Below are positions 1,672 to 25,271 of a DNA stretch of 25,271 nucleotides, one piece after another. The notes below the pieces were generated by a model. That model ran no database searches and had not been told where the DNA came from. It was given only the letters and a program-made list of their open reading frames with translations. The stretch spans positions 1-25,271 of IMG/VR virus record IMGVR_UViG_3300042319_001320, one strand, 5' to 3'. The position numbers were made by a program, and so were the translations under genes. Every line of letters begins with the position of its first letter. The first letter of the stretch is position 1. The stretch is from a virus.

Positions 1672-3789
<2,118 letters not shown>

Positions 3790-5765: not shown

Positions 5766-6824
5766 ATGAGATTTCATGTAGTTTCCCTTCCTCACACAAA
5801 CACGACTGAAGACTTCACGGCATGTGCCTATACGGAGAAAGTCCGTAAGTTCTGCATCATGATGAAAGACCTCGGGCATACCGTGTTTCTGTATGGCGGC
5901 GAGTTCAACGAAGCCCCCTGTGACGAGCACATCACCTGTATTACCGAAGAACAGCGTCTAGAAGCCGTAGGACCGAATCATTACTCGGCTGCGTCGTTTG
6001 ACTGGAACCTCCCACATTGGGTTGAGTTTAATGGCAACGTAGTCAAAGGCATTCAAGAGCGCCTGGAGCACAAAGACTTTATTTGCCTTATTGCTGGTTT
6101 TGCATCCAAGCCAATAGCCGATGCTTTTCCTGACGAACTAAGCGTGGAGTTCGGAATTGGTTATGGCGGGTCGTTCGCTCCATTCAAGGTCTTTGAGTCC
6201 TATGCGTGGATGCACTCCTGCTACGGGTCGAAAGTGACCGACCCCCATGCCCTTGATGGAAAGTTCTACGACACGGTAATCCCAAGTTATATTGATATTC
6301 AAGACTTCCCTTTACAGGAAACGCCAGATGACTACTATTTGTTCATAGGACGCCTTATTGAGCGCAAGGGCTATCAGATTGCAGTTGACACCTGTAAGGC
6401 CCTAGGAAAGCGTCTGGTGGTCGCTGGACAGGGTTCTGCGCCCAACTATGGGGAGTATGTTGGAGTTGTAGGGACAGAAGAGCGAGCCAAGCTAATGGGT
6501 GGTGCAATTGCCACATTTACGCCAACTATTTACGTCGAGCCTTTTGGAACCGTAGCTATCGAAGCGATGGCCTGTGGGTCTCCAATTATCTCTACAGACT
6601 GGGGTGCTTTCACTGAAACAGTCATCGACGGAGTGACCGGATTTCGCTGTCACACGATGCAAGAGTTCGCTGACGCAACTGAGGACGTCAAGACTCTTGA
6701 TAGAGCGGCGATTAGTAAATACTCAAAAGACCGCTACGGATTAGACACCGTGGGAAAGATGTACGAGAAGTATTTTACTCGTTTGCAGGGTCTATGGGGA
6801 AAAGGTTTCTACGAGCTTTCGTAG
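5766..6824 (+). CDS. GT-B glycosyltransferase, family 4 / group 1 type
   Basis: A 352-residue glycosyltransferase predicted to move a sugar from a nucleotide-sugar donor to an acceptor in the host cytoplasm. The C-terminal domain is diagnostic. YLFIGRLIERKG (about residues 191-202) is the usual entry strand and loop, VVAGQG follows, and the E-x7-E motif lies in EPFGTVAIEAMACGSP with Glu258 and Glu266, which bind the donor in this family. The N-terminal domain is compact, with HVVSLPHTNTTEDFTACAYT at the usual acceptor-side start. No membrane segment is visible. It closes the plus-strand adhesin cluster. Possible acceptors are Thr residues of the collagen-like fibres, other virion proteins, or a host surface glycan; the sequence does not decide. 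The last codons lie in a hairpin at 6801-6829. Confidence 0.9.
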   Translation: MRFHVVSLPHTNTTEDFTACAYTEKVRKFCIMMKDLGHTVFLYGGEFNEAPCDEHITCITEEQRLEAVGPNHYSAASFDWNLPHWVEFNGNVVKGIQERLEHKDFICLIAGFASKPIADAFPDELSVEFGIGYGGSFAPFKVFESYAWMHSCYGSKVTDPHALDGKFYDTVIPSYIDIQDFPLQETPDDYYLFIGRLIERKGYQIAVDTCKALGKRLVVAGQGSAPNYGEYVGVVGTEERAKLMGGAIATFTPTIYVEPFGTVAIEAMACGSPIISTDWGAFTETVIDGVTGFRCHTMQEFADATEDVKTLDRAAISKYSKDRYGLDTVGKMYEKYFTRLQGLWGKGFYELS

Positions 6825-12913: not shown

Positions 12914-14437
12914 CTAACCTAAAAAATATCCACCATAGTAAAACTTGTGGGAACTTGTGCCGAGTTGCATCCCAACCGAAGAAAACATAGTCGTTCTCAT
13001 GTAGTCACCACTTGCCATATAGCGAACTACTGGCGACATCGCCAAAGGGCTATCTACCAGCGAGGTGTTGGCACCACTGATAAACGCCCAGTCTCCGCCT
13101 ACTGTTTGGTTGACAGAAAAACTGATTGCGTATCTGTTTCCAGCACCAGCATAGTTTCCCCAACCACCAGCATAAAACAGGTAGTAACCCGTAGCAGGAG
13201 CAGTAAATAACCCTGTTGAACTATTCCAATGCGAACCGTTGTTGTGGCTAACTATGGCAGTGCCACCAAGCAGGCTGATGTCCACCCAGTTTGCTGGGTG
13301 GTTATATCCACCTGTATAAATAAGAAAAGAAGGCTGACTTGGCTTCTTGACCAAGTTTGCAAAAGTAGTTGGTCCTGAACCTGCTTCAACAGTCATTCGT
13401 TGAGCGACACCCGATTCAACAAGCGCCCACGACTGATAGGAGGGGGTAACTTCATAATGCCATCTGTTGGTGCCATTTATCGAAAAATACTGAATGGCAT
13501 AACCGCTGGTGGAGTTAATTTTTATACTTGTATCCCCAGAACCGGATGCAGTTATGTTTCCGAAAGTTGGAGTCGCTGTGGTGGTAACCGATTGACCAAT
13601 ACTCACAGTAACGGCACCTGTTGCTCCAGAAACAGTCACTCCCGTACCGCCAGCTAGTGATGTAACACCATTTGAACCAGGAACACCCGAAGGTCCAGTT
13701 GCCCCAATGGGTCCAGTTGCACCGGTTGGACCACCAGCAGGACCAGTTGCGCCAGTAATTCCAGTAGGTCCTGTTGCGCCAGTTAAACCTGTGGGTCCAG
13801 TTGGTCCGGTTACTCCATCTAGCCCGGGCAAACCATTAAATCCCGGGTCGCCCTGGGGGCCAGTTGCGCCAGTTGTCCCAACCCCTGTCGGACCAGTTGC
13901 TCCAGTTGCGCCGATACCGGTAGCGCCTGCAGGACCAGTCGCACCAGTTAAACCAGTCGGACCGGTTGCTCCTGTAAGTCCAGTCGGGCCAGTTGGTCCA
14001 CCTGCAGGTCCGGTCGCTCCAGTTGCCCCAACAATACTTAGTGGTTGTGGTCCAATTTCAATCCAAGACGAGTCGTAGTAAATAAAAGTGGTACTCGTAC
14101 TTGAGTCAAACCATAAATCACCAGAGGATGGAGTTGATGGAGCCGCATCGGATATGGCTACTCCTGCTTGCGGCGCTTCTTTGATGGTTGCTAGTCCTAA
14201 AACAACTAGCTCAGTAAAGAACTCGTTAGAAAACGTACATTTAACTACGTCCCCAATAGTCAAGATTGAATTGCTATTTGTATTAAGAGGGACGACTCTT
14301 TCATAAGAAGATGCCAGCTCCTGAACGTATACAGTTACGGCACCGCGTGAATCAACTGCTTTTATTATTCCTGAATAAATGCGACCTGGGGCAAGCGGAT
14401 GGGATGACGATTTTACTCTGTCAATAATTTCTGCCAT
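12914..14437 (-). CDS. Baseplate spike protein with OB fold, collagen rod and C1q-like head
   Basis: A 507-residue mosaic. Residues about 15-85 ([20 protein letters not shown] to ELVVLGLA) look like the OB fold of gpV/gp5-type spikes, and the gene lies right after the hub gene, where a spike gene belongs. Residues 105-129 ([20 protein letters not shown]) are a short aromatic beta module. Residues 137-258 are Gly-X-Y collagen repeats. Residues 259-365 look like a fibre domain ([19 protein letters not shown]). Residues 368-507 resemble a C1q/TNF-type head: [35 protein letters not shown] and a final [10 protein letters not shown] match the family's strand pattern. No beta-helical needle repeat is visible. 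The ATG has AAGG nine bases upstream. The C1q call rests on motif pattern and should be checked by structure. Confidence 0.85.
13664..14029 (-). repeat. Gly-X-Y collagen repeat tract, locus 3 (in the spike gene)
   Basis: About 40 nine-base units encode Gly-X-Y, again with Thr favoured at Y. The interruptions PAGGPTG (twice) and GIGATG/GVGTTG (once each) resemble those of the two plus-strand collagen loci. A more mixed segment, [13 protein letters not shown], lies in the middle. The tract is in inverted orientation relative to loci 1 and 2. Confidence 0.9.
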
Positions 14438-16218: not shown

Positions 16219-17700
16219 TCACTCCGCAGGAACGGGAAGCCCGCGGTTCTTGTACCAGCACGGACTAAGTTTGATTCCGCCTTCCCGAGATGTTGGAGAA
16301 GAATCGGTTGCTAGTTCGGTACACAATTCTGGGTCAGGAGTATCCCCTGGAGCGTTTGGCACGCGGGGAACTTTACGAAGTTTTGGCATGAAAATAACAT
16401 TGTCCGGAGTAAGGCGAACTTCTTGGATTGTCATACTGACGGTCGCGCGACTTATGCTTCCTCCATTAGACGTGGAAGTGAGAGGAGTTCTTTGAATGGA
16501 AGAGATTGATATATCAAAAATCGCCCATTCCCTGTAGCTTTTTTCTTCTATTACTTTTGTGCTGCCACTAAACAGTGAGTCAAAATTCCTAAAGGTTACA
16601 AGTTCAGGAGTGTTCGCCATTCTCTGTAGTTTTGCAAGCTGGTCTTCACATGATTCGTGGATGCTTGACTTTCCACCAGAATGCTCTTCGACAACAAATT
16701 CAAATGAAATTTTCATAAGCTTATTGTTTTTGTAATCAACTAATCCGTAATTGTTTACACGGTCAATTTCCGTCCATGTAACTCCGATATTGCTGTATGA
16801 GATATTGTTAGGCCGTAAGTTGAACGTGTATTCATCTAATACAGTTTTTTCGGTAGAGTTAGACGTTGCCCTGCGCTGAATCATCTTTGGCAAATCTGGC
16901 AACGATGATGATTTCACGGTTGATACGGGTGAAGAAACAGAAATTGTTGCACTTTTTGTTGCCGTAGCGCTAGTGACATATGCAGTCATAAACGCGCTAT
17001 TCCTTGTAGACAGAGAATTTACCAAGCTTGTTGCAGCCGTAGCAGAAGTTCCTTGGGATATTAGTTCTCTAATTTGGGCGGAGTCAAAATTTTCAAGATT
17101 CATGTCTGCTGAATCGCCAACAAAACCATCCCATTTTGATTGTGATGCTTCGTCAAAATTAGGAAGTTCAGCTATTGCGTCCGTGGAATCCAAAAGAAAA
17201 AACAATTTAAGAAGAGGGTGATACCAGTATTGAGGCCAATTTTCGTCGGTATCCGTGAATTTGCGCCATTTTTTAATTTGTGATTGCTTGTATGGATTTT
17301 CGTTGCTTTGAAATTTAGTGAGACCCCACTCAAATGTGTACTGGGTTGCTACATAGATATTGCCTGCAAAAACAATTTTGTGACCGGTTACATAATTATT
17401 GTATTTTGTAGTTTTAGGGTTTGAGTATGGTATCTGTGGGGCTCTTAGATTGTCATCATCGTCCCACAGATATTCATCGCCTGCCGTATATTCGATGTAG
17501 TTGAAGTCTTGTTGAGAACCGCTTAGGAATGGGAGCCAATACTTCTGGGCAGAAACTTGAGTGTATGACGCAGGATACATGGGGGTGTTTGTGTTTTCCG
17601 TTTGCCTGAAAAGCTTTTTTATGGAATACCCTTTTCGCACGCTTGCGTTGTCTGTTTCGGTATAGCCGATAGTTATGTATGAGATGCTATTTAGTGCCAT
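16219..17700 (-). CDS. Baseplate/tail-hub region protein of unknown class
   Basis: A 493-residue protein whose ATG overlaps the tape measure stop (TAATG), so it is translationally coupled. The position between tape measure and hub is where proteins such as P2 gpU/gpX, T4 gp53 or XkdP-type hub-proximal proteins occur. Residues 1-170 are aromatic-rich (YWLPFLSGSQQDFNYIEY, EYLWDDDDN, KIVFAGNIYVATQYTFEW). A Ser/Thr/Ala-rich linker spans about 210-275. Residues about 285-430 form a beta-rich domain (YTFNLRPNNISYSNIGVTWT, then LMKISFEFVVEEHSGG and RATVSMTIQEVRL) that recalls the N-terminal part of XkdP-like proteins. The Pro-rich C-terminus has two Cys. No LysM repeat is visible. Which homologue it represents is not decided by the sequence. 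Confidence 0.7.
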   Translation of the reverse strand: MALNSISYITIGYTETDNASVRKGYSIKKLFRQTENTNTPMYPASYTQVSAQKYWLPFLSGSQQDFNYIEYTAGDEYLWDDDDNLRAPQIPYSNPKTTKYNNYVTGHKIVFAGNIYVATQYTFEWGLTKFQSNENPYKQSQIKKWRKFTDTDENWPQYWYHPLLKLFFLLDSTDAIAELPNFDEASQSKWDGFVGDSADMNLENFDSAQIRELISQGTSATAATSLVNSLSTRNSAFMTAYVTSATATKSATISVSSPVSTVKSSSLPDLPKMIQRRATSNSTEKTVLDEYTFNLRPNNISYSNIGVTWTEIDRVNNYGLVDYKNNKLMKISFEFVVEEHSGGKSSIHESCEDQLAKLQRMANTPELVTFRNFDSLFSGSTKVIEEKSYREWAIFDISISSIQRTPLTSTSNGGSISRATVSMTIQEVRLTPDNVIFMPKLRKVPRVPNAPGDTPDPELCTELATDSSPTSREGGIKLSPCWYKNRGLPVPAE

Positions 17701-20700
17701 TATGTTCTCTGCCTGTTAGAACGTTCTTTTTCTTGAATTTTGGCCATGACCATGTTGGCGATTACCTCAGGAGCAGCGTTGTTGCCATTTATTTCAAAAG
17801 TATAGTAATTATTGGTTCCGCCACCGGAACTAGATGCTGTAGAAACTGGCGTAGATGTTGCTGTGTCGCCCATCTTTCCGGCACCAGGAACAACATGAAG
17901 ATGACGATTAGCCATGGAACCGTGGAACTCAGCAAAGCCTCCATTTGCATGAACAAGCTTTGCGTATTGACCAAGGTTCTGTCCTGTGAGGTCGTAAGCA
18001 GAACCAGTTGCGTGGTCTGAGTTGATTGAACCAAGTGCATAGTCTCTAAGAGAAGAAGTGACTGTTCTTTTTCCTGTCAACTGACCGTTCATGGCGGCGT
18101 GACGGCCCATTGTTTGAGAAAGCTTGCTTGTTGCAGTGTCTCCGATTGCACCGCCGCGAGGGGTTGAAGTGTCTCCAGGCATTAGACGCATATCGTCACC
18201 CGTACCAGTAACCTTTAGTCCGGCCGACCACCATCCCGGTGCGTTGCCGAGAGGAGCCTTAAAGAAGCCATCCATATTGGTGTTAAAGGTGGTGACTGCT
18301 GTTTCTAAGCCTTTTGCAGCCGTAGAAAAATCAGTAGCAGCATCGGCGATTTTGTTAAGCTTGTCTGGGTCTTCGGCAGTAACAGTTACGCCGCTTCCCA
18401 GAAGGCCCTCAAGACCTGTCGTTACGTCTGCCGCGGTTTCTCCACCTATTGCTTTTTTCAGTTTGTTTTGTTCACCACCCTTTGGAACGCTACTGTCTTT
18501 GTCAAAATTTGAAATATTCTCTAATATGCCTGTTAGTTCTTGAGGAGTCTTTCCGGATAGTTTTGCTTCCAAGACACCTGGGGCAACGGTCATTCCTTTA
18601 TCTGCTAATCTTGCACGTATTTGCTCAGCGGCGTTACCTACTGCCCCCTCTTTTATGGCTGCTTGAGACGCTATAACGTCTTTGTCTTGCAGGACAGTTT
18701 TTCCTTGTCCCTCCAATGCCGCGCCTTTTGCAAAAAGACCCCCCGTTTCTCCTTGTCCATACATTTCGTTATAGGACAGATAAGCTTTTGTAGCGTCTCC
18801 ACCATTTACTGCTAGCAGCTGCGCAAATTGCTGCTCCATAGATGCACCAATGGCTTTCGATTTCTCAGCTTTGCTACCTTTGCCACGGAGAACATCACCT
18901 AAACCAGCTATGTTTTGATTAAGAGCGGCTTGACTTTCATCTTTTTCTCTGGTTTCCTTGAAGGGATTTGCTCCGGCAAGAAAATTATCAGTCAGCGCGT
19001 CATTGAGGGCTGCTCCTGTTTTTATAATGCCTGCAGTAAATTTTCCTAAAAGTTCGGTGTATTGTACGGTTGGGTTGTAAAGGTCAACACCCATTGTTTT
19101 AGCCATTTGCTCTAGCTCTGCACCACTCTTACCAGTAGCTCTAGATAACGCATCTATTCTTGCACTGTTTTGTTTATCTATTTCTCCAAGTTGCTTTTGA
19201 ACGGCTGGGTCGGTTTGTTCCAGCAGTGTTCGCAGCGTGCCGGTTGCCTTTTTTTTCTGCGTCTTTCTGTCTTCTTCGCTGACCTTGCTTCCTTCTGCAG
19301 TCTTGTAATACGCCTCAAGGGCTGCTACTGGGTTGGCAAATTCCTGCTTGCCGCCCAACATGTAGCTTCCGCCCGCGCCCGCTATTGCGCCTTCCACGGA
19401 ACCGCGAATACGGCTTTGAGTTTTTGCAAACCCCTTTCCAACCCCAAGCATGGTGGCACTTTTTCCGGCTAAGCTTACGCCTCTCTGAGAAGCTTCATAA
19501 TTTTCCTGGAATTTTGCATTTGCGCTTTTCATGGTTCCCATGTAAAGCTCTCCGAGGCTTTCCATGACTGTCGCTTTAGCCGCAGCAAGTTGAGCTTTAC
19601 CCTTATTTACGGCTCCCATTATTCCGCCGACAAGTAGACCTATTCCGGCACCAATCGCCGCACCATGTGGTCCCAACATTCCGCCAAGAGCCGCTCCACC
19701 AGCAGCACCAGACAGGGCACCTTTCATTGCGCCCTGAGCCTTCATGGCTCCACCTATTCCAGCAACACCGAGTCCAAGCATTGGGTTAATGGTGCCAACA
19801 GTTGCTCCAAGAGCCATGGCTCCACGCATTTCTTCTGGAGCGTATTGACTTGCCATTCCAAGTCCTATTCCTACACCAGCCCTTGCCCCCATACTGTTAT
19901 TGAACTTTTTTGTGCCGGCTCCAAATTTGCTATCATTTCGCAGCATTCTATTGGTTTCGCGAGCTCGATTTAATTTTGCGAACATTCTGCTGCCACGGTT
20001 ACGATTTGTATCGGCGCTGGTGGCTTTTTCGTATCTTTTGTTTATTTCATCACGTTGTTCTTTTGTGTTTTTGTATTCTCCTGTTTCAGGGTCGTATGCA
20101 CCAGATTGTAAAAAAGACATTGCGCCCCTGTAGCCACCCAATGCTCGCGCCCCACCATACTTAACCCTGCTGGCCCCACCTTTAGCAAAGCTTTTTAAAC
20201 GTTTAGCGTCATTACTAATCCCGGTTCCTATCCCAACAGGGCGAGGGTCGTTTTTAAACTCTGCAACTGAACCCTTTTTTGCAAGTATTTGTCTATTGAT
20301 TTCTTCTCTTGTAGATTTCTTGGTTATTCCAGTGACTCCCTTGTCTGCTGCTATTTGATGCAATTCGCGTCTGGAGCGACCGTTGAGAGATTGTTCGGCA
20401 CGAAAACGAGCAGACTTTGCAAGATTAAACTGAGGGTTTGGTTGAGGCTTTCCGTCACGACCCATAATGGTAGGCGACGAATATGGGTCCTTTGGCTGCC
20501 CAAAAGCCGCATAGCCAGCTCCTCGTCCCATTGCTTGTCTTTCCGCAAATCTTTCTGAGTGTCTTGTCTCGAAGTCGCTTCCACGGACCTGTACCTTGCT
20601 ACCGTCTCGGATATTTTGAATAAATCTCCGGTTTGGAGTGTCTCGCATAGCGGCAAATGCTTCTTTATTGGTGCTAGCTTTAAAAACACTTAATTGAGAT

Positions 20701-22493
20701 GACGGACCATAAACAGAAGGTGCAGAAATTTTTCCTAAAGCGCTACTACCAGGATAAACCATGGGAGAAGCGGTACTGCCCGAAGAAACTCTGCGGCCTT
20801 CATTTGTTGTCCCGGCATTCCTTGGACCAGCACCATTATTAATGCTTACGTTGGTAGCGGTTACGTTCATGTTTTGAGTGTGATTTCCAGACTTGGGCAT
20901 TAAGCGGCCCTTGACTCCGGCCAATCCTCTTCCCAAAACAGCAGCACCCATTAGTGGAGCAAGAGCTGCTCCGAGACCGCTTCCAGCTCCAACAGTCATG
21001 ATTCCGGTAAGAACTTTAAACACCTGATTAAGACCCGCCAAAAGGTCGTTTATAAATGGAGCCATCTGGGCAAAGTTTTTCTTGAGACCCATAAAGTATT
21101 CGGAAAGGGTGTCGATGATGTCTGCTATGCGTTGACCGAACTCTTCAACAAAAAAACTATTTTCTTCCAGGAGGTCCTTGAAAAGCGTAAGGTTTTGAGC
21201 GCCCCCCTTGATGGAATCCCATACCGGGTCCAAGGCCTTATACAGAACCTTTGCTCCGTCGATGAGCGGACGTGTTGCATCTAGAACAAGATTCCAACCA
21301 CGTTTGAATTTGGTATACCAATCACCGATTCTGTCAAACATGCCAATTGCGGCAGGTAGGTATTCGCGAATCATTTTTACTAGCCAGCCAGATGCTTTTT
21401 CTATAGCGCTTGCAAAGTTATTTATGCCTTCCTCTGCACCAAAGCTGTACTGAATTGCAGCAAAAACACGCATTAAGTCAGTTCTGACTTTGTCAAATAC
21501 GCGAGCGAATGCAACTTTTAACGGCTCAAGAAACTGGTCACCAAAATCTGCGAACTCACCACGTAGACGAGTGAAGTACCCTTTCATTTGGCTAATCAAA
21601 GTATTGTTCACTGCGTCAAACTGACCAGAAACTCCACCCTTCTTAGCAAGGTCTCCGGACATCAGAAGTTCTTGGAATTGTTTCTTGGTCTTGACGTTTG
21701 CCTTTTTTAAGGCGGATTCCATTTCTGGACCTAGTTTTTTTGCCTCAGTTATGACGTCACTGATGTTTTTCTTTTTGTCAGAAAGTGCGGCTATAACTAT
21801 AGATACTTGCTCAAGCCCTTTAGCTGGGTCTTGACCTGCCGAACCAAAGTCCATCAAAGCTTTGATTGCTCCACCGCTTTGGTTTATTTGTCCGGTGTTC
21901 ATTGACTTCGACATATTTCCATATGCCTTGTTGAGTGCTTCTATTCCGAGACTGGACAAAGCCGCGTCGGCTTGTAGGTTTCTCATCGCCATGCGAGTCT
22001 GATTCATTGCTGACCCAAAAGCTGGAGCACCTTTGCCTCTATAGGCGTATATTGCTGCTTGCTGTTCTCGTATTGCCGCTGAGGCTGCAGATATTGCAAC
22101 GACCACCCCCGCCGCGCCCGCCGAAAGCATCTGCATGGCACCCCTGTAGGCTTTAACTAGAAATTGTCCTGCAGCAAATAATGCGTGAATACCAATCATT
22201 GTTGCGCCAAGTATTGCCATTTCAGCAACAACACCCTTGACGGACATTCCCAGGAACTTGGTCAGGCCTTTGCCTGCCATCTTTGCGCCTTTATCTATAA
22301 AGTCAAAGCTTCTCTTCCAGCCATTAGTGACGCTTTTTAAGCTTTTGTTTGTACTGTTGGCAAATTTGTCTGTTCTGCCGCTAGAAAGCTTGTCTAGTCT
22401 TTTGTGTAAAACTGCAATTTCCGCAATTGCACGGCGAATTTCACCAGTTTGGGCATCAAATTTAATTTTTACATTAATATTTTCGTCTGCCAT
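17700..22493 (-). CDS. Tail tape measure protein with C-terminal M15-like peptidase domain
   Basis: At 1597 residues it is the longest gene in the window and lies directly after the chaperone pair, as tape measures do. Residues about 81-140 are strongly hydrophobic (MAILGATMIGIHALFAAGQF onward). A further small-residue hydrophobic block lies near 490-525, and a Gly/Ala-rich one at about 867-964. The rest is largely helical, as expected for a ruler inside the tube. Residues about 1470-1540 resemble an M15-type peptidase: SDHATGSAYDL gives His1494-x6-Asp1501, and RHLHVVPG gives His1531 and His1533, a candidate zinc site. The C-terminus after the domain (YYTFEINGNNAAPEVIANMV, then KERSNRQRT) has the usual tape measure ending. 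The domain could cut peptidoglycan during DNA entry. Expected tail length, at about 0.15 nm per residue, is near 240 nm (inference). Confidence 0.93.
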   Translation of the reverse strand: MADENINVKIKFDAQTGEIRRAIAEIAVLHKRLDKLSSGRTDKFANSTNKSLKSVTNGWKRSFDFIDKGAKMAGKGLTKFLGMSVKGVVAEMAILGATMIGIHALFAAGQFLVKAYRGAMQMLSAGAAGVVVAISAASAAIREQQAAIYAYRGKGAPAFGSAMNQTRMAMRNLQADAALSSLGIEALNKAYGNMSKSMNTGQINQSGGAIKALMDFGSAGQDPAKGLEQVSIVIAALSDKKKNISDVITEAKKLGPEMESALKKANVKTKKQFQELLMSGDLAKKGGVSGQFDAVNNTLISQMKGYFTRLRGEFADFGDQFLEPLKVAFARVFDKVRTDLMRVFAAIQYSFGAEEGINNFASAIEKASGWLVKMIREYLPAAIGMFDRIGDWYTKFKRGWNLVLDATRPLIDGAKVLYKALDPVWDSIKGGAQNLTLFKDLLEENSFFVEEFGQRIADIIDTLSEYFMGLKKNFAQMAPFINDLLAGLNQVFKVLTGIMTVGAGSGLGAALAPLMGAAVLGRGLAGVKGRLMPKSGNHTQNMNVTATNVSINNGAGPRNAGTTNEGRRVSSGSTASPMVYPGSSALGKISAPSVYGPSSQLSVFKASTNKEAFAAMRDTPNRRFIQNIRDGSKVQVRGSDFETRHSERFAERQAMGRGAGYAAFGQPKDPYSSPTIMGRDGKPQPNPQFNLAKSARFRAEQSLNGRSRRELHQIAADKGVTGITKKSTREEINRQILAKKGSVAEFKNDPRPVGIGTGISNDAKRLKSFAKGGASRVKYGGARALGGYRGAMSFLQSGAYDPETGEYKNTKEQRDEINKRYEKATSADTNRNRGSRMFAKLNRARETNRMLRNDSKFGAGTKKFNNSMGARAGVGIGLGMASQYAPEEMRGAMALGATVGTINPMLGLGVAGIGGAMKAQGAMKGALSGAAGGAALGGMLGPHGAAIGAGIGLLVGGIMGAVNKGKAQLAAAKATVMESLGELYMGTMKSANAKFQENYEASQRGVSLAGKSATMLGVGKGFAKTQSRIRGSVEGAIAGAGGSYMLGGKQEFANPVAALEAYYKTAEGSKVSEEDRKTQKKKATGTLRTLLEQTDPAVQKQLGEIDKQNSARIDALSRATGKSGAELEQMAKTMGVDLYNPTVQYTELLGKFTAGIIKTGAALNDALTDNFLAGANPFKETREKDESQAALNQNIAGLGDVLRGKGSKAEKSKAIGASMEQQFAQLLAVNGGDATKAYLSYNEMYGQGETGGLFAKGAALEGQGKTVLQDKDVIASQAAIKEGAVGNAAEQIRARLADKGMTVAPGVLEAKLSGKTPQELTGILENISNFDKDSSVPKGGEQNKLKKAIGGETAADVTTGLEGLLGSGVTVTAEDPDKLNKIADAATDFSTAAKGLETAVTTFNTNMDGFFKAPLGNAPGWWSAGLKVTGTGDDMRLMPGDTSTPRGGAIGDTATSKLSQTMGRHAAMNGQLTGKRTVTSSLRDYALGSINSDHATGSAYDLTGQNLGQYAKLVHANGGFAEFHGSMANRHLHVVPGAGKMGDTATSTPVSTASSSGGGTNNYYTFEINGNNAAPEVIANMVMAKIQEKERSNRQRT

Positions 22494-22560: not shown

Positions 22561-23276
22561 CTAAGTCTTCGACTTGCGCTCTTGCTCTTCGCGGTCGTTA
22601 CTTATTACTTTAGCACAGGCGAGAAGGACCAACCAGTCATTATCGTCAAAGTTCATAAGTTCCAAAGGATTAACGTGGAAAAGTTCTCCGAGTCTTGCTG
22701 CGGAGATGACTACGGAATCTTCAACTAGTTCGTCGAAGATTCCTTCGTAGGGTCCACCGCGGCAACAGTATCTGAATATCCAGCGGCGTCCAGGATTGCC
22801 AAAGCGGCTGATTCTATATGAGGGTCAACACCAAACATGGCACGCACGGCGTCTGGAACTGGACGGGTAGTGTCTGTCATTTCCAAAACCAACGGGTGAG
22901 CAAAGTTTAGGTTATTGCCACTCTCGTCATAGATTTCTTCATCGTCCATACAGATGCCTATGGTCGTATTACCAATAACCAGGCAGGCAAATTTGGTGGC
23001 ATCAAGACCATTTCGTGAGTCTTCGCCAGCAGATTTTCTCCAGTTTTTCATCTGTGACTGAGTAATGTTTGGGCTGACCTTAATGCTCACGCCATCACGT
23101 TCTGTGACAGGAATATGAACAACAGGGCGTTCAACTTTCTTTCTTACAACAGAACGCAAACGGTCAAGTTGTGTCTCTTCTTTTACAGAAGAAGTAAGTC
23201 CATCGCGCTGAACAGCCTTTTTGCTGCTCTTAACGTCGTCGGAGTCTTCGGTCGTGTACAGGGGATTATCGCTCAT
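22561..23276 (-). CDS. Frameshifted tail assembly chaperone (G-T type fusion)
   Basis: A -1 shift near the end of the 183-residue chaperone joins it to a 60-codon frame with no start codon of its own, ending at the TAG 22561-22563. The extension begins GIFDELVEDSVVISAARLGE and contains DNDWLVLLACAKVISNDRE, a helical, acidic pattern typical of the T part of lambda-type G/GT chaperones. The -1 frame is open only after a TGA at the VDP-HIE region upstream, which limits the slip window. If the slip occurs at CCT (Pro176), the fusion has 238 residues. No ATG, GTG or TTG lies early in the extension, so reinitiation cannot make it. In this family G and G-T bind the tape measure before tube assembly; gene order tube, chaperone, tape measure fits. 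The exact slip base is inferred. Confidence 0.8.
22714..22755 (-). promoter_or_regulatory. Programmed -1 frameshift signal: slip site GGACCCT plus 12-bp hairpin
   Basis: GGACCCT (22755 to 22749, read as G GAC CCT) is followed by five bases (ACGAA) and then a hairpin. The arms GGAATCTTCGAC (22743-22732) and GTTGAAGATTCC (22725-22714) pair over 12 bp with a single G-U, around a six-base GAACTA loop. The zero-frame stop TAG spans the loop and the 3' arm. A slip at CCT re-pairs Pro-tRNA perfectly on CCC; the preceding Asp codon re-pairs poorly, so the site is not a canonical X-XXY-YYZ. Confidence 0.65.
22725..23276 (-). CDS. Tail assembly chaperone, short (G-type) product
   Basis: A 183-residue acidic protein between tail tube and tape measure, the standard place for the G chaperone. 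The N-terminal 60 residues are charged and probably disordered (TTEDSDDVKSSKKAVQRDG). The middle has SQMKNWRKSAGEDSRNGLDA and a beta stretch FACLVIGNTTIGICMDDEEI. The C-terminus, AMFGVDPHIESAALAILDAA, ends with KESSTN. Normal termination at the TAG 22725-22727 gives this product; a minority of ribosomes should shift into the -1 frame (see the entry at 22561). The start ATG has no clear Shine-Dalgarno. An ATG 22 bases upstream is out of frame. In known systems G is made in large excess over G-T. Confidence 0.85.
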   Translation of the reverse strand: MSDNPLYTTEDSDDVKSSKKAVQRDGLTSSVKEETQLDRLRSVVRKKVERPVVHIPVTERDGVSIKVSPNITQSQMKNWRKSAGEDSRNGLDATKFACLVIGNTTIGICMDDEEIYDESGNNLNFAHPLVLEMTDTTRPVPDAVRAMFGVDPHIESAALAILDAAGYSDTVAAVDPTKESSTN

Positions 23277-23324: not shown

Positions 23325-23822
23325 TTAAGCGGCGTCTACGTCTGAGATTGCGAACGTTAATGCAAACGTGGCTGGAGCTCCAGATGACGAGTCACCTTCT
23401 GGCTCGGTCATTCCAACAAGCAGTGCATTTGTGTAAATGCGGTCGTTGGTTGGGTCCTTGATATCGCAGTCGTAAACAGATACTGTAAGGTTGAAGTAGG
23501 CCGTTCCGACAAATCGACGCAAGTCTTTGATTTTGCGTCCAATACCAGCACTTGTAAGTGAGGTATTCATATCGTCATCGTAATGAGCAGTCAGCGTGAT
23601 GTCGCCTATTTCTGAAGGGGCACACAGGACTGTCGGTCTAGACTTTCCGCCTTCGTAGATTTTCTCTACGGATGCTGTTATCTCGCCACCTGAAACCTGA
23701 GCAAAGCGGAATCCTTCCCACTTCGGCAGGTTGGCCTGCACGTTGGTTTGCTGTTTGGCATTATCGCTGAAAGTGCTTGGAACTATTGTTGCCAGTACTT
23801 GTCTTTGCGCTACTTTTGACAT
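23325..23822 (-). CDS. Tail tube protein
   Basis: A 165-residue tube subunit, directly downstream of the sheath gene as in most contractile tails. Features fitting the T4 gp19-like tube fold are LPKWEGFRFAQVSGGEITAS, the KIYEGGKSRPTVLCAPSEI loop, DITLTAHYDDDMNTSLTSAG and the C-terminal beta part (YFNLTVSVYDCDI to ATFALTFAISDVDAA). Its length is normal for the family. It has a strong ribosome site (AGAGGAAG) 8 bases before the ATG and is preceded by 16 bases from the sheath stop. It polymerises into the inner tube through which DNA passes, around the tape measure. A 48-base gap separates it from the chaperone gene. Confidence 0.92.
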   Translation of the reverse strand: MSKVAQRQVLATIVPSTFSDNAKQQTNVQANLPKWEGFRFAQVSGGEITASVEKIYEGGKSRPTVLCAPSEIGDITLTAHYDDDMNTSLTSAGIGRKIKDLRRFVGTAYFNLTVSVYDCDIKDPTNDRIYTNALLVGMTEPEGDSSSGAPATFALTFAISDVDAA

Positions 23823-23838: not shown

Positions 23839-25271
23839 TTAAACCACTGTTGAGGTTAGGTTTGACTTGACAATATCGATTTCGATTCTGTCACCGACGC
23901 TGCTGACGCGAACGCCAACTTTCGCTTTGACCAATCCTTCAGACAACTGCAATGTTGGGTTAAGCGAAGAATCGCACTTCACAACATAACCGTTATCAAG
24001 TTGGCGGCCATTGGCATCAAAAGCTGGGTAAAGAGCCCCAATGCCACGCATGACCGACAAAATTGATATTAATCGCGACTCAATGTTAGCAAAAATAGTA
24101 TTTCTGCCGTCGATGGAACTGAATACAACATCTTCAATAGAACGGTAACACTCTGTAACGATTGTATTTACAACGTCCTGCTGGGTGATGTAGCGGAAGT
24201 TGTCAATGTCAGACGACAGTGAACGTGCACCGTATATTCTTATTGTGTTTTGAATGATTCTGATTGGGTTTACGTTATTGGCATCCAAGTCGTCACCAAC
24301 TGATTTGTTGATGTCAGCACTTAAGCCAACCACGAATCCAGCTGCAGAAATGAGACCAGCTGCAGGAAGGTGTGGGCCAGTTTGGTTGTGAGCAACCGCC
24401 CGCTTGCCGGCAACATATCCCACTGGTGGAATAAATCGAGTAACTCCTGGAACACTAGTTGGAACCTCTACCCATGGGTAGTACAGGGCTGCGTGTTCTG
24501 CACCGTCTTCAGCTTGGAGCGTAAGTGCTGTTGTTTTGACCGTAGCAACAGAGTCGTTTTCTCCAGCGAACAAAAGAGCAATTCTGCTGTATGTATTTGC
24601 ATGCGTAATTAAAGCAGCCGACATTGCGTCGCTGGAATTTTCTGGACAAACTACTGCACCAGAACCAAGAGCGTCATTAAAGAGCCCCAATTTTGATTCA
24701 TAGGCAGATTGGTTAACTAGGTTATTGTTTGATACCCCCGTAGTGAGAGGGGTTAAACCAACAGCGTCCGGGATGAGGGTCGTGCTGTTTACTGTTGCGT
24801 TTACGTATCTTTGGGCTATTGCGCTGAGATTTATTCTTCCCGCTGCCTGGGATGACGTAGACACTGTTCCTGTTGAGTACTTTTGTGCTCCGTCGTACCA
24901 GATGTCAATTTTAAACGTAGTTACCGTAGGCTGAGTGACTACGATTTCAACATCTGCGCTCCATGGGCCCGCTCCGTTTGCGGTAAGAGTGATAACGGGT
25001 TCTGCACTGTCGTAAAGCGTAAGGCTTCCCACTGTCGCAGATGCTCCAACGGCTCTTGCAACGTAAGCCCGTGTACCACCTTCTTCAAAAAATGTTTCTA
25101 GGGTTGAGTGAGTGTAGGTACCGGCTAGGTAGCCTCCAAACACGTCCTCGAACTCTCCCAGGTTTTGGATGAGTACAGGCTCGTCTGAAGGGCCTCTCTC
25201 TGTCAGGCCTACGACAAACAACTGTGACGACTCGCGTACTGTTGTGGTCGAAGGACCGGTTCTTACTGAAG
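23839..25271 (-). CDS. Tail sheath protein, N-terminus cut by the window edge
   Basis: A contractile tail sheath subunit whose reading frame runs off the right end of the window. In the visible part the family pattern LFVVGLTERGPSDEPVLIQN, NLGEFEDVFGGYLAGTYTH and FFEEGGTRAYVARAVGA opens the protein. The later part has SRIALLFAGEN and YYPWVEVPTS, then the conserved region ending PPVGYVAGKRA. The C-terminal domain, with DNGYVVKCDSSLNPTLQLSE and GVRVSSVGDRIEIDIV, is the usual sheath end. The TTG at 25219-25221 is not the true start: 16 further in-frame codons upstream (including RTGPSTTTVRES) read as sheath N-terminus. The sheath contracts around the tube to drive it through the host envelope. 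The tube gene follows after 16 bases. Confidence 0.93.
   Translation of the reverse strand, partial: SVRTGPSTTTVRESSQLFVVGLTERGPSDEPVLIQNLGEFEDVFGGYLAGTYTHSTLETFFEEGGTRAYVARAVGASATVGSLTLYDSAEPVITLTANGAGPWSADVEIVVTQPTVTTFKIDIWYDGAQKYSTGTVSTSSQAAGRINLSAIAQRYVNATVNSTTLIPDAVGLTPLTTGVSNNNLVNQSAYESKLGLFNDALGSGAVVCPENSSDAMSAALITHANTYSRIALLFAGENDSVATVKTTALTLQAEDGAEHAALYYPWVEVPTSVPGVTRFIPPVGYVAGKRAVAHNQTGPHLPAAGLISAAGFVVGLSADINKSVGDDLDANNVNPIRIIQNTIRIYGARSLSSDIDNFRYITQQDVVNTIVTECYRSIEDVVFSSIDGRNTIFANIESRLISILSVMRGIGALYPAFDANGRQLDNGYVVKCDSSLNPTLQLSEGLVKAKVGVRVSSVGDRIEIDIVKSNLTSTVV

Follow-up and report, generated by a model that had tools for sequence, protein, structure and literature searches.

A probable -1 ribosomal frameshift at an unusual slip site in the tail assembly chaperone gene of an actinobacteriophage-like myovirus

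What do the closest described systems look like? Phage lambda makes a short tail assembly chaperone, gpG, and a -1 extended form, gpGT, from a locus directly upstream of the tape measure gene; the lambda model has the short form bound to the tape measure, with the extended form bringing in the tube subunits (reviewed in PMC5009743). Most long-tailed phages shift frame in this manner; the frameshift itself is to be expected, and frameshifting in tail chaperones is a well-known phenomenon rather than a new system. For phages of Gordonia, the joined chaperone product is already annotated in the genomes (PMC4524720). In Escherichia coli, C_CC.U is one of six tetramers that are shift-prone in the presence of a stimulator, the six best tetramers shifting at 0.26-5.6% with the IS3 pseudoknot, that is, weakly (PMC4066793). 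The locus described here lies on the minus strand of a 25,271-base IMG/VR virus record, which was analysed as a whole and is referred to as the window; what is unusual about it is its slip motif.

Two sets of relatives were compared with it. In IMG/VR, protein-based scans identified 37 distinct metagenomic relatives in register, with 71-100% identity to the query across the part that aligned, drawn from the best 80 per scan of 254 detected there. The isolates comprise 22 phages, six of Gordonia, one of Brevibacterium (Cantare) and 15 of Arthrobacter. The bacterial and archaeal genome collection searched contained no relative of the window locus, and an IMG/VR scan with the Gordonia alignment had GMA6 itself as its sole match.

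The tail module and its chaperone gene

On the minus strand, the genes follow one another in the order sheath, tube, chaperone and probable tape measure. The tail sheath protein (23839-25271, running off the window; phrog_23, E 5e-32) is 31-37% identical to the sheaths of Brevibacterium, Gordonia and Arthrobacter phages, and its gene shows that the tail is, by prediction, a contractile one. The tail tube protein (23325-23822; phrog_5102, E 1e-18) adjoins the chaperone upstream. The G-like zero-frame product of the chaperone gene, 183 residues in length (22725-23276, with its TAG stop at 22727-22725), falls into the tail assembly chaperone family phrog_5088 (E 2.3e-16), and its predicted fold has the tail assembly chaperone of Cantare as its best viral match (E 4e-11); Pfam provided no family for the chaperone, and a Foldseek search of its model against the PDB no usable match. 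The next gene downstream encodes a probable tape measure protein of 1597 residues (17700-22493), assigned by its size and by its position, which is where the tape measure is annotated in the Gordonia, Brevibacterium and Arthrobacter relatives. The chaperone gene thus lies between those for tail tube and tape measure, and because this gene order is syntenic with annotated G/GT loci, it supports a frameshift. From the chaperone stop to the tape measure ATG (22493) there are 231 bases, not the 233 of the initial annotation.

Among the isolates, the nearest to the window, myoviruses of Gordonia, Brevibacterium and Arthrobacter, are about 20-33% identical to it in chaperone sequence and 30-37% in sheath sequence. 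As these infect actinobacteria, an actinobacterial host is likely for the window as well.

The module and its surroundings have further features. Near the C terminus of the tape measure, reading by eye finds DHATGSAYDLTG ... HLHV, which resembles a D-Ala-D-Ala carboxypeptidase (M15-type) motif; Pfam gave no support for it at the threshold used. Collagen-like Gly-X-Y repeats occur in three proteins (282-1304, 3049-3420 and 12914-14437), two of them on the plus strand and one inside the minus-strand tail module, the product of 12914-14437 scoring with Pfam Collagen and that of 282-1304 with tail-fibre PHROGs. A glycosyltransferase (5766-6824, plus strand; Pfam PF00534, phrog_3408) is encoded beside the tail-fibre genes. 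An Rfam search of the window returned no family.

The slip site and the hairpin

The candidate slip site is G_GAC_CCU (22749-22755, minus strand), where GGACCCT is read in phase as G GAC CCT (22755-22749) and the tetramer C_CCU (22752-22749) forms the core. The site is invariant in the 37 distinct relatives, and so is the 5-nt spacer ACGAA that follows it (22744-22748). Measured against the canonical heptamer X_XXY_YYZ, the YYY position is CCC but the XXX position is GGA, and the proline codon would re-pair fully and the aspartate codon partly; its earlier description as no textbook heptamer was apt. Judged by the motif names given for PRFect, none of its eight backward motifs fits GGACCCT, and the nearest, 'twoonefour', differs in the last base alone, as its name reads (PMC10885494). 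A literature search with the string GGACCCT returned unrelated papers only, and in the limited literature covered we found no description of a slip motif of this type.

The codon usage of the relatives singles out this site. Within the last 150 codons, 84 columns of the 37 distinct relatives have an invariant, degenerate amino acid; synonymous codon variation is seen in 81 of them, and the three without any are GAC, CCT and ACG. In 37/37, GAC is preceded by G, although this base ends a GTG codon in 30 and a TCG codon in seven. The wobble bases of GTG/TCG and of GAC precede the shift and are free of dual coding, and for this reason a mechanistic constraint is the natural reading of their conservation. 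The wobble base of ACG and the 5' arm of the stem provide weaker evidence, since both are dual-coded by the overlapping frames.

In the isolates, the tetramer is retained in other surroundings. An in-phase C_CCU, kept in the 37 metagenomic relatives, is also found in 22/22 isolates, 7-13 nt before the chaperone stop and followed by a -1 extension. In the six Gordonia phages and in Cantare it is part of a canonical heptamer, C_CCU_UUG or C_CCU_UUA; the 15 Arthrobacter phages are without one, 14 reading G GAC CCT and Abba C GAC CCT. The full motif proposed in the initial annotation is kept in the window lineage, but the deep core is C_CCU, with the first G replaced by C or T in the Gordonia phages and by C in Abba. 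In DalanDe, a -1-frame TGA stands immediately before CCC, and in ArV1 the stop follows CCT with a single codon, CAC, in between; for these two relatives, the shift can therefore be bracketed at or next to CCT.

Does the G_GAC part contribute to slippage? The same frameshift could be brought about by a single tRNA slipping on the tetramer C_CCU, with G_GAC taking no part in re-pairing, and we rate the chance of this a little short of even: the 22 isolates share no element other than CCCT, the first base of the site varying, and C_CC.U is shift-prone as a bare tetramer (PMC4066793). What speaks against it is the G before GAC, which is invariant in the 37 relatives across the change between GTG and TCG and is present in 14/15 Arthrobacter isolates as compared with 0/7 of those with a C_CCU_UUR heptamer, a contrast that is not independent as the groups are related. 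With the same reservation, the invariant G in heptamer-less lineages suggests that partial re-pairing of tRNA-Asp may help. We give even chances to a broader reading, in which G_GAC_CCU would be a distinct functional slip motif of actinobacteriophage-like myoviruses, tRNA-Pro re-pairing fully and tRNA-Asp partly, and in which relatives would have exchanged the recoding signal while keeping CCU, the Gordonia phages with heptamer and SD-like stretch, the window lineage with tetramer and strong hairpin.

The presumed frameshift stimulator is a hairpin (22714-22743, minus strand) that starts 5 nt after GGACCCT. As initially described, it has 12 bp, one of them G-U, and a 6-nt loop, and it encloses the zero-frame stop TAG. 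For the segment 22765-22680, the folding energy is -33.9 kcal/mol (z = -4.15, 0/200 shuffles as low), and none of the 8,414 30-nt windows tested on the same strand is as low as the 30-nt hairpin itself (-17.3). Stems of 12 bp are not rare as such, and the window has several more; it is the conservation among relatives, rather than the length of the stem, that lifts the feature above chance. Over 28 distinct sequences, the stem is paired in 92.9% of cells, with two inner pairs broken in 7/28 and 11/28 sequences. Two-sided changes are found at three pairs, as compared with 0-1 in slid controls: the closing G-C is C-G in one metagenomic relative (L048), pair 4 occurs as A-U, G-U or G-C, and pair 10 changes from G-C to A-U. 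Shuffles reached this pair count in 37/500 cases, and the cell count and covariation score in 2/500. All 19 distinct hairpin sequences fold (-11.6 to -19.4 kcal/mol). A stem 5-9 nt past the slip site with compensatory change is what a stimulator calls for, and the spacer here is 5 nt, or 6 if the first pair is lost. The comparison with relatives thus found GGACCCT invariant and the stem kept, with covariation that lends the stem modest support.

The hairpin is specific to the window lineage and is not common to the isolate relatives. In the window lineage, z ranges from -4.4 to -8.2, an exploratory figure that takes the best of many windows. For the isolates, a downstream hairpin common to them all was considered and rejected, as their z mostly lies between 0.5 and -2.3; those below are Zartrosa (-4.6), Lymara (-3.1) and Jinkies (-2.8), each the best of 15 windows.

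The -1 extension and the frameshift

The -1 frame of the minus strand is open from 22824 to its stop at 22563-22561, running beyond the chaperone stop, and has no start codon near its beginning. Counted from TAC (22749-22747), the T-like extension comprises 62 codons (22561-22749) and ends on TAG. A shift from CCT to CCC yields a fusion of 176+62 = 238 residues next to the 183-residue ORF, and the geometry of the anticipated 183/238-residue pair is thereby confirmed. In all 36 relatives with the full-length region, the extension is open, with 63-67 codons counted from CCC. Upstream, the mean entropies of frame-0 positions 1, 2 and 3 are 0.26-0.34, 0.03-0.18 and 1.27-1.30 bits; past the hairpin they are 0.46, 1.41 and 0.75, and then 0.23, 0.82 and 0.59. 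Maximum variation moves from the frame-0 third position upstream to the -1-frame third position downstream.

Homologues of the extension are the annotated frameshifted halves of Gordonia chaperones (hhalign probability 96%), and its alignment with Cantare starts exactly at the slip-point CCC (E 2e-6), these reference extensions being known by annotation. Together with the assignment of the G part to phrog_5088, this homology supports the earlier proposal of a -1 frameshift that adds a T-like domain to the tail assembly chaperone. Against PHROG and PDB sequences, the extension had no significant match; its AlphaFold model has three helices (pLDDT 87), and Foldseek found no match for it below E 0.1. 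Weak matches to phrog_14573 came from four members of the window's extension family (best E 0.01). This family, to which PHROG assigns no function, matches the shifted-frame half of the chaperone of Arthrobacter phage Sicarius2 (E 8e-13) and probably represents an inner segment of a frameshifted chaperone.

Could the extension instead be a small gene in its own right, with a start codon of its own and translational coupling to the chaperone? A short ORF is called here in some annotations (Cantare gene 23, Colucci gene 20). However, the first ATG, GTG or TTG of the window's -1 ORF lies 62 nt past the zero-frame stop and inside the conserved domain, the conserved residues begin at the slip point itself, and the entire -1 ORF is devoid of these codons in one metagenomic relative (L057) and in the isolates Brent, Jawnski and Jinkies, which contradicts a separate gene. 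We thus regard it as very unlikely; what is found is a conserved overlapping -1 ORF without a start of its own, as in G/GT loci. The patterns that would have spoken against the initial annotation were sought in the relatives, and they have no interrupting stops, no consistent start codon and no synonymous drift over the slip site. Transcriptional slippage would result in the same fusion, but this process usually takes place on homopolymer runs far longer than CCC, the longest that the site has to offer, and it has no need of a conserved hairpin and spacer; its probability is minute. An error in sequencing or the decay of a fused gene, for which nothing speaks beyond the broken frame, is refuted by the recurrence of the arrangement in 22 isolate genomes and in 37 distinct metagenomic sequences, which come from many samples, and its probability is practically nil. 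A +1 shift was rejected as well, as that frame stays open for no more than 4 to 88 nt past the stop.

Our characterization thus agrees, with high confidence, with a programmed -1 ribosomal frameshift by which two chaperones would be made from one gene. Points that weigh against it are the low shift rates of tetramers in E. coli, the share of the conservation that the overlapping frames impose, the modest covariation of the stem and the absence of a strong hairpin from most isolate relatives. The majority of ribosomes would read to the TAG at 22727 and produce the 183-residue G-like protein. A minority would be held up at the hairpin while tRNA-Asp occupies GAC and tRNA-Pro occupies CCU. The tRNA-Pro would then slip from CCU to CCC with a full match, and tRNA-Asp from GAC to GGA with what we reason to be a partial one, G-C in the first position, G-U in the second and a mismatch in the third. 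Reading in the -1 frame would continue as ...AVDP-YEGIFDELVEDS... to 22561, giving the 238-residue G-T fusion. By analogy with gpG and gpGT, the G part may serve to bind the tape measure protein, and the T part to recruit tube subunits.

Comparison with known frameshift systems

The window locus would work like that of lambda gpG/gpGT, with no claim of sequence similarity; the slip site of lambda is a canonical heptamer, unlike that of the window. The Z_ZZN motifs of the IS1 and IS3 families share with the window that C_CC.U is among the tetramers shift-prone in E. coli, but they belong to transposase genes, in which A_AA.G and U_UU.Y predominate (PMC4066793).

Closer in kind are the Arthrobacter myoviruses (Klausavirus, Marthavirus, Ayohtrevirus and relatives), which like the window have the C_CCU core without a canonical heptamer, usually as GTG GAC CCT, and a -1 extension, here of 63-73 residues. 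Their chaperones are 20-29% identical to that of the window; they differ in the distance from slip site to stop, 7-13 nt as compared with 25 nt in the window, and most have no comparable hairpin. Some of their records call an internal fragment of the homologous -1 extension as a hypothetical protein. As the slip motif lies outside the canonical heptamer, it is missed by motif-based searches and by annotators: in the 15 Arthrobacter records inspected, the extension is present yet never joined to the chaperone, a joined or frameshifted chaperone being annotated in 0/15.

The Gordonia myoviruses GMA6, ChisanaKitsune, UBSmoodge, DalanDe, Schomber and ScarletRaider have the same order of sheath, tube, chaperone and tape measure, a homologous G part (about 30% identity), a homologous -1 extension and GAC CCT at the junction. 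They differ in using the canonical C_CCU_UUG without a strong hairpin, whereas the window combines a tetramer, or non-standard heptamer, with a strong one, and in having a purine-rich upstream stretch that pairs with the anti-SD. In this exploratory comparison, stimulators seem to differ by lineage, with the strong hairpin in the window lineage and the upstream SD-like stretch in several Gordonia phages; in most Arthrobacter phages, neither seems clear, taking the best of many windows. The clade thus lends itself to comparison, with a CCU codon that never varies and surroundings (heptamer, SD-like stretch, hairpin) that do, making the contribution of each stimulator directly measurable.
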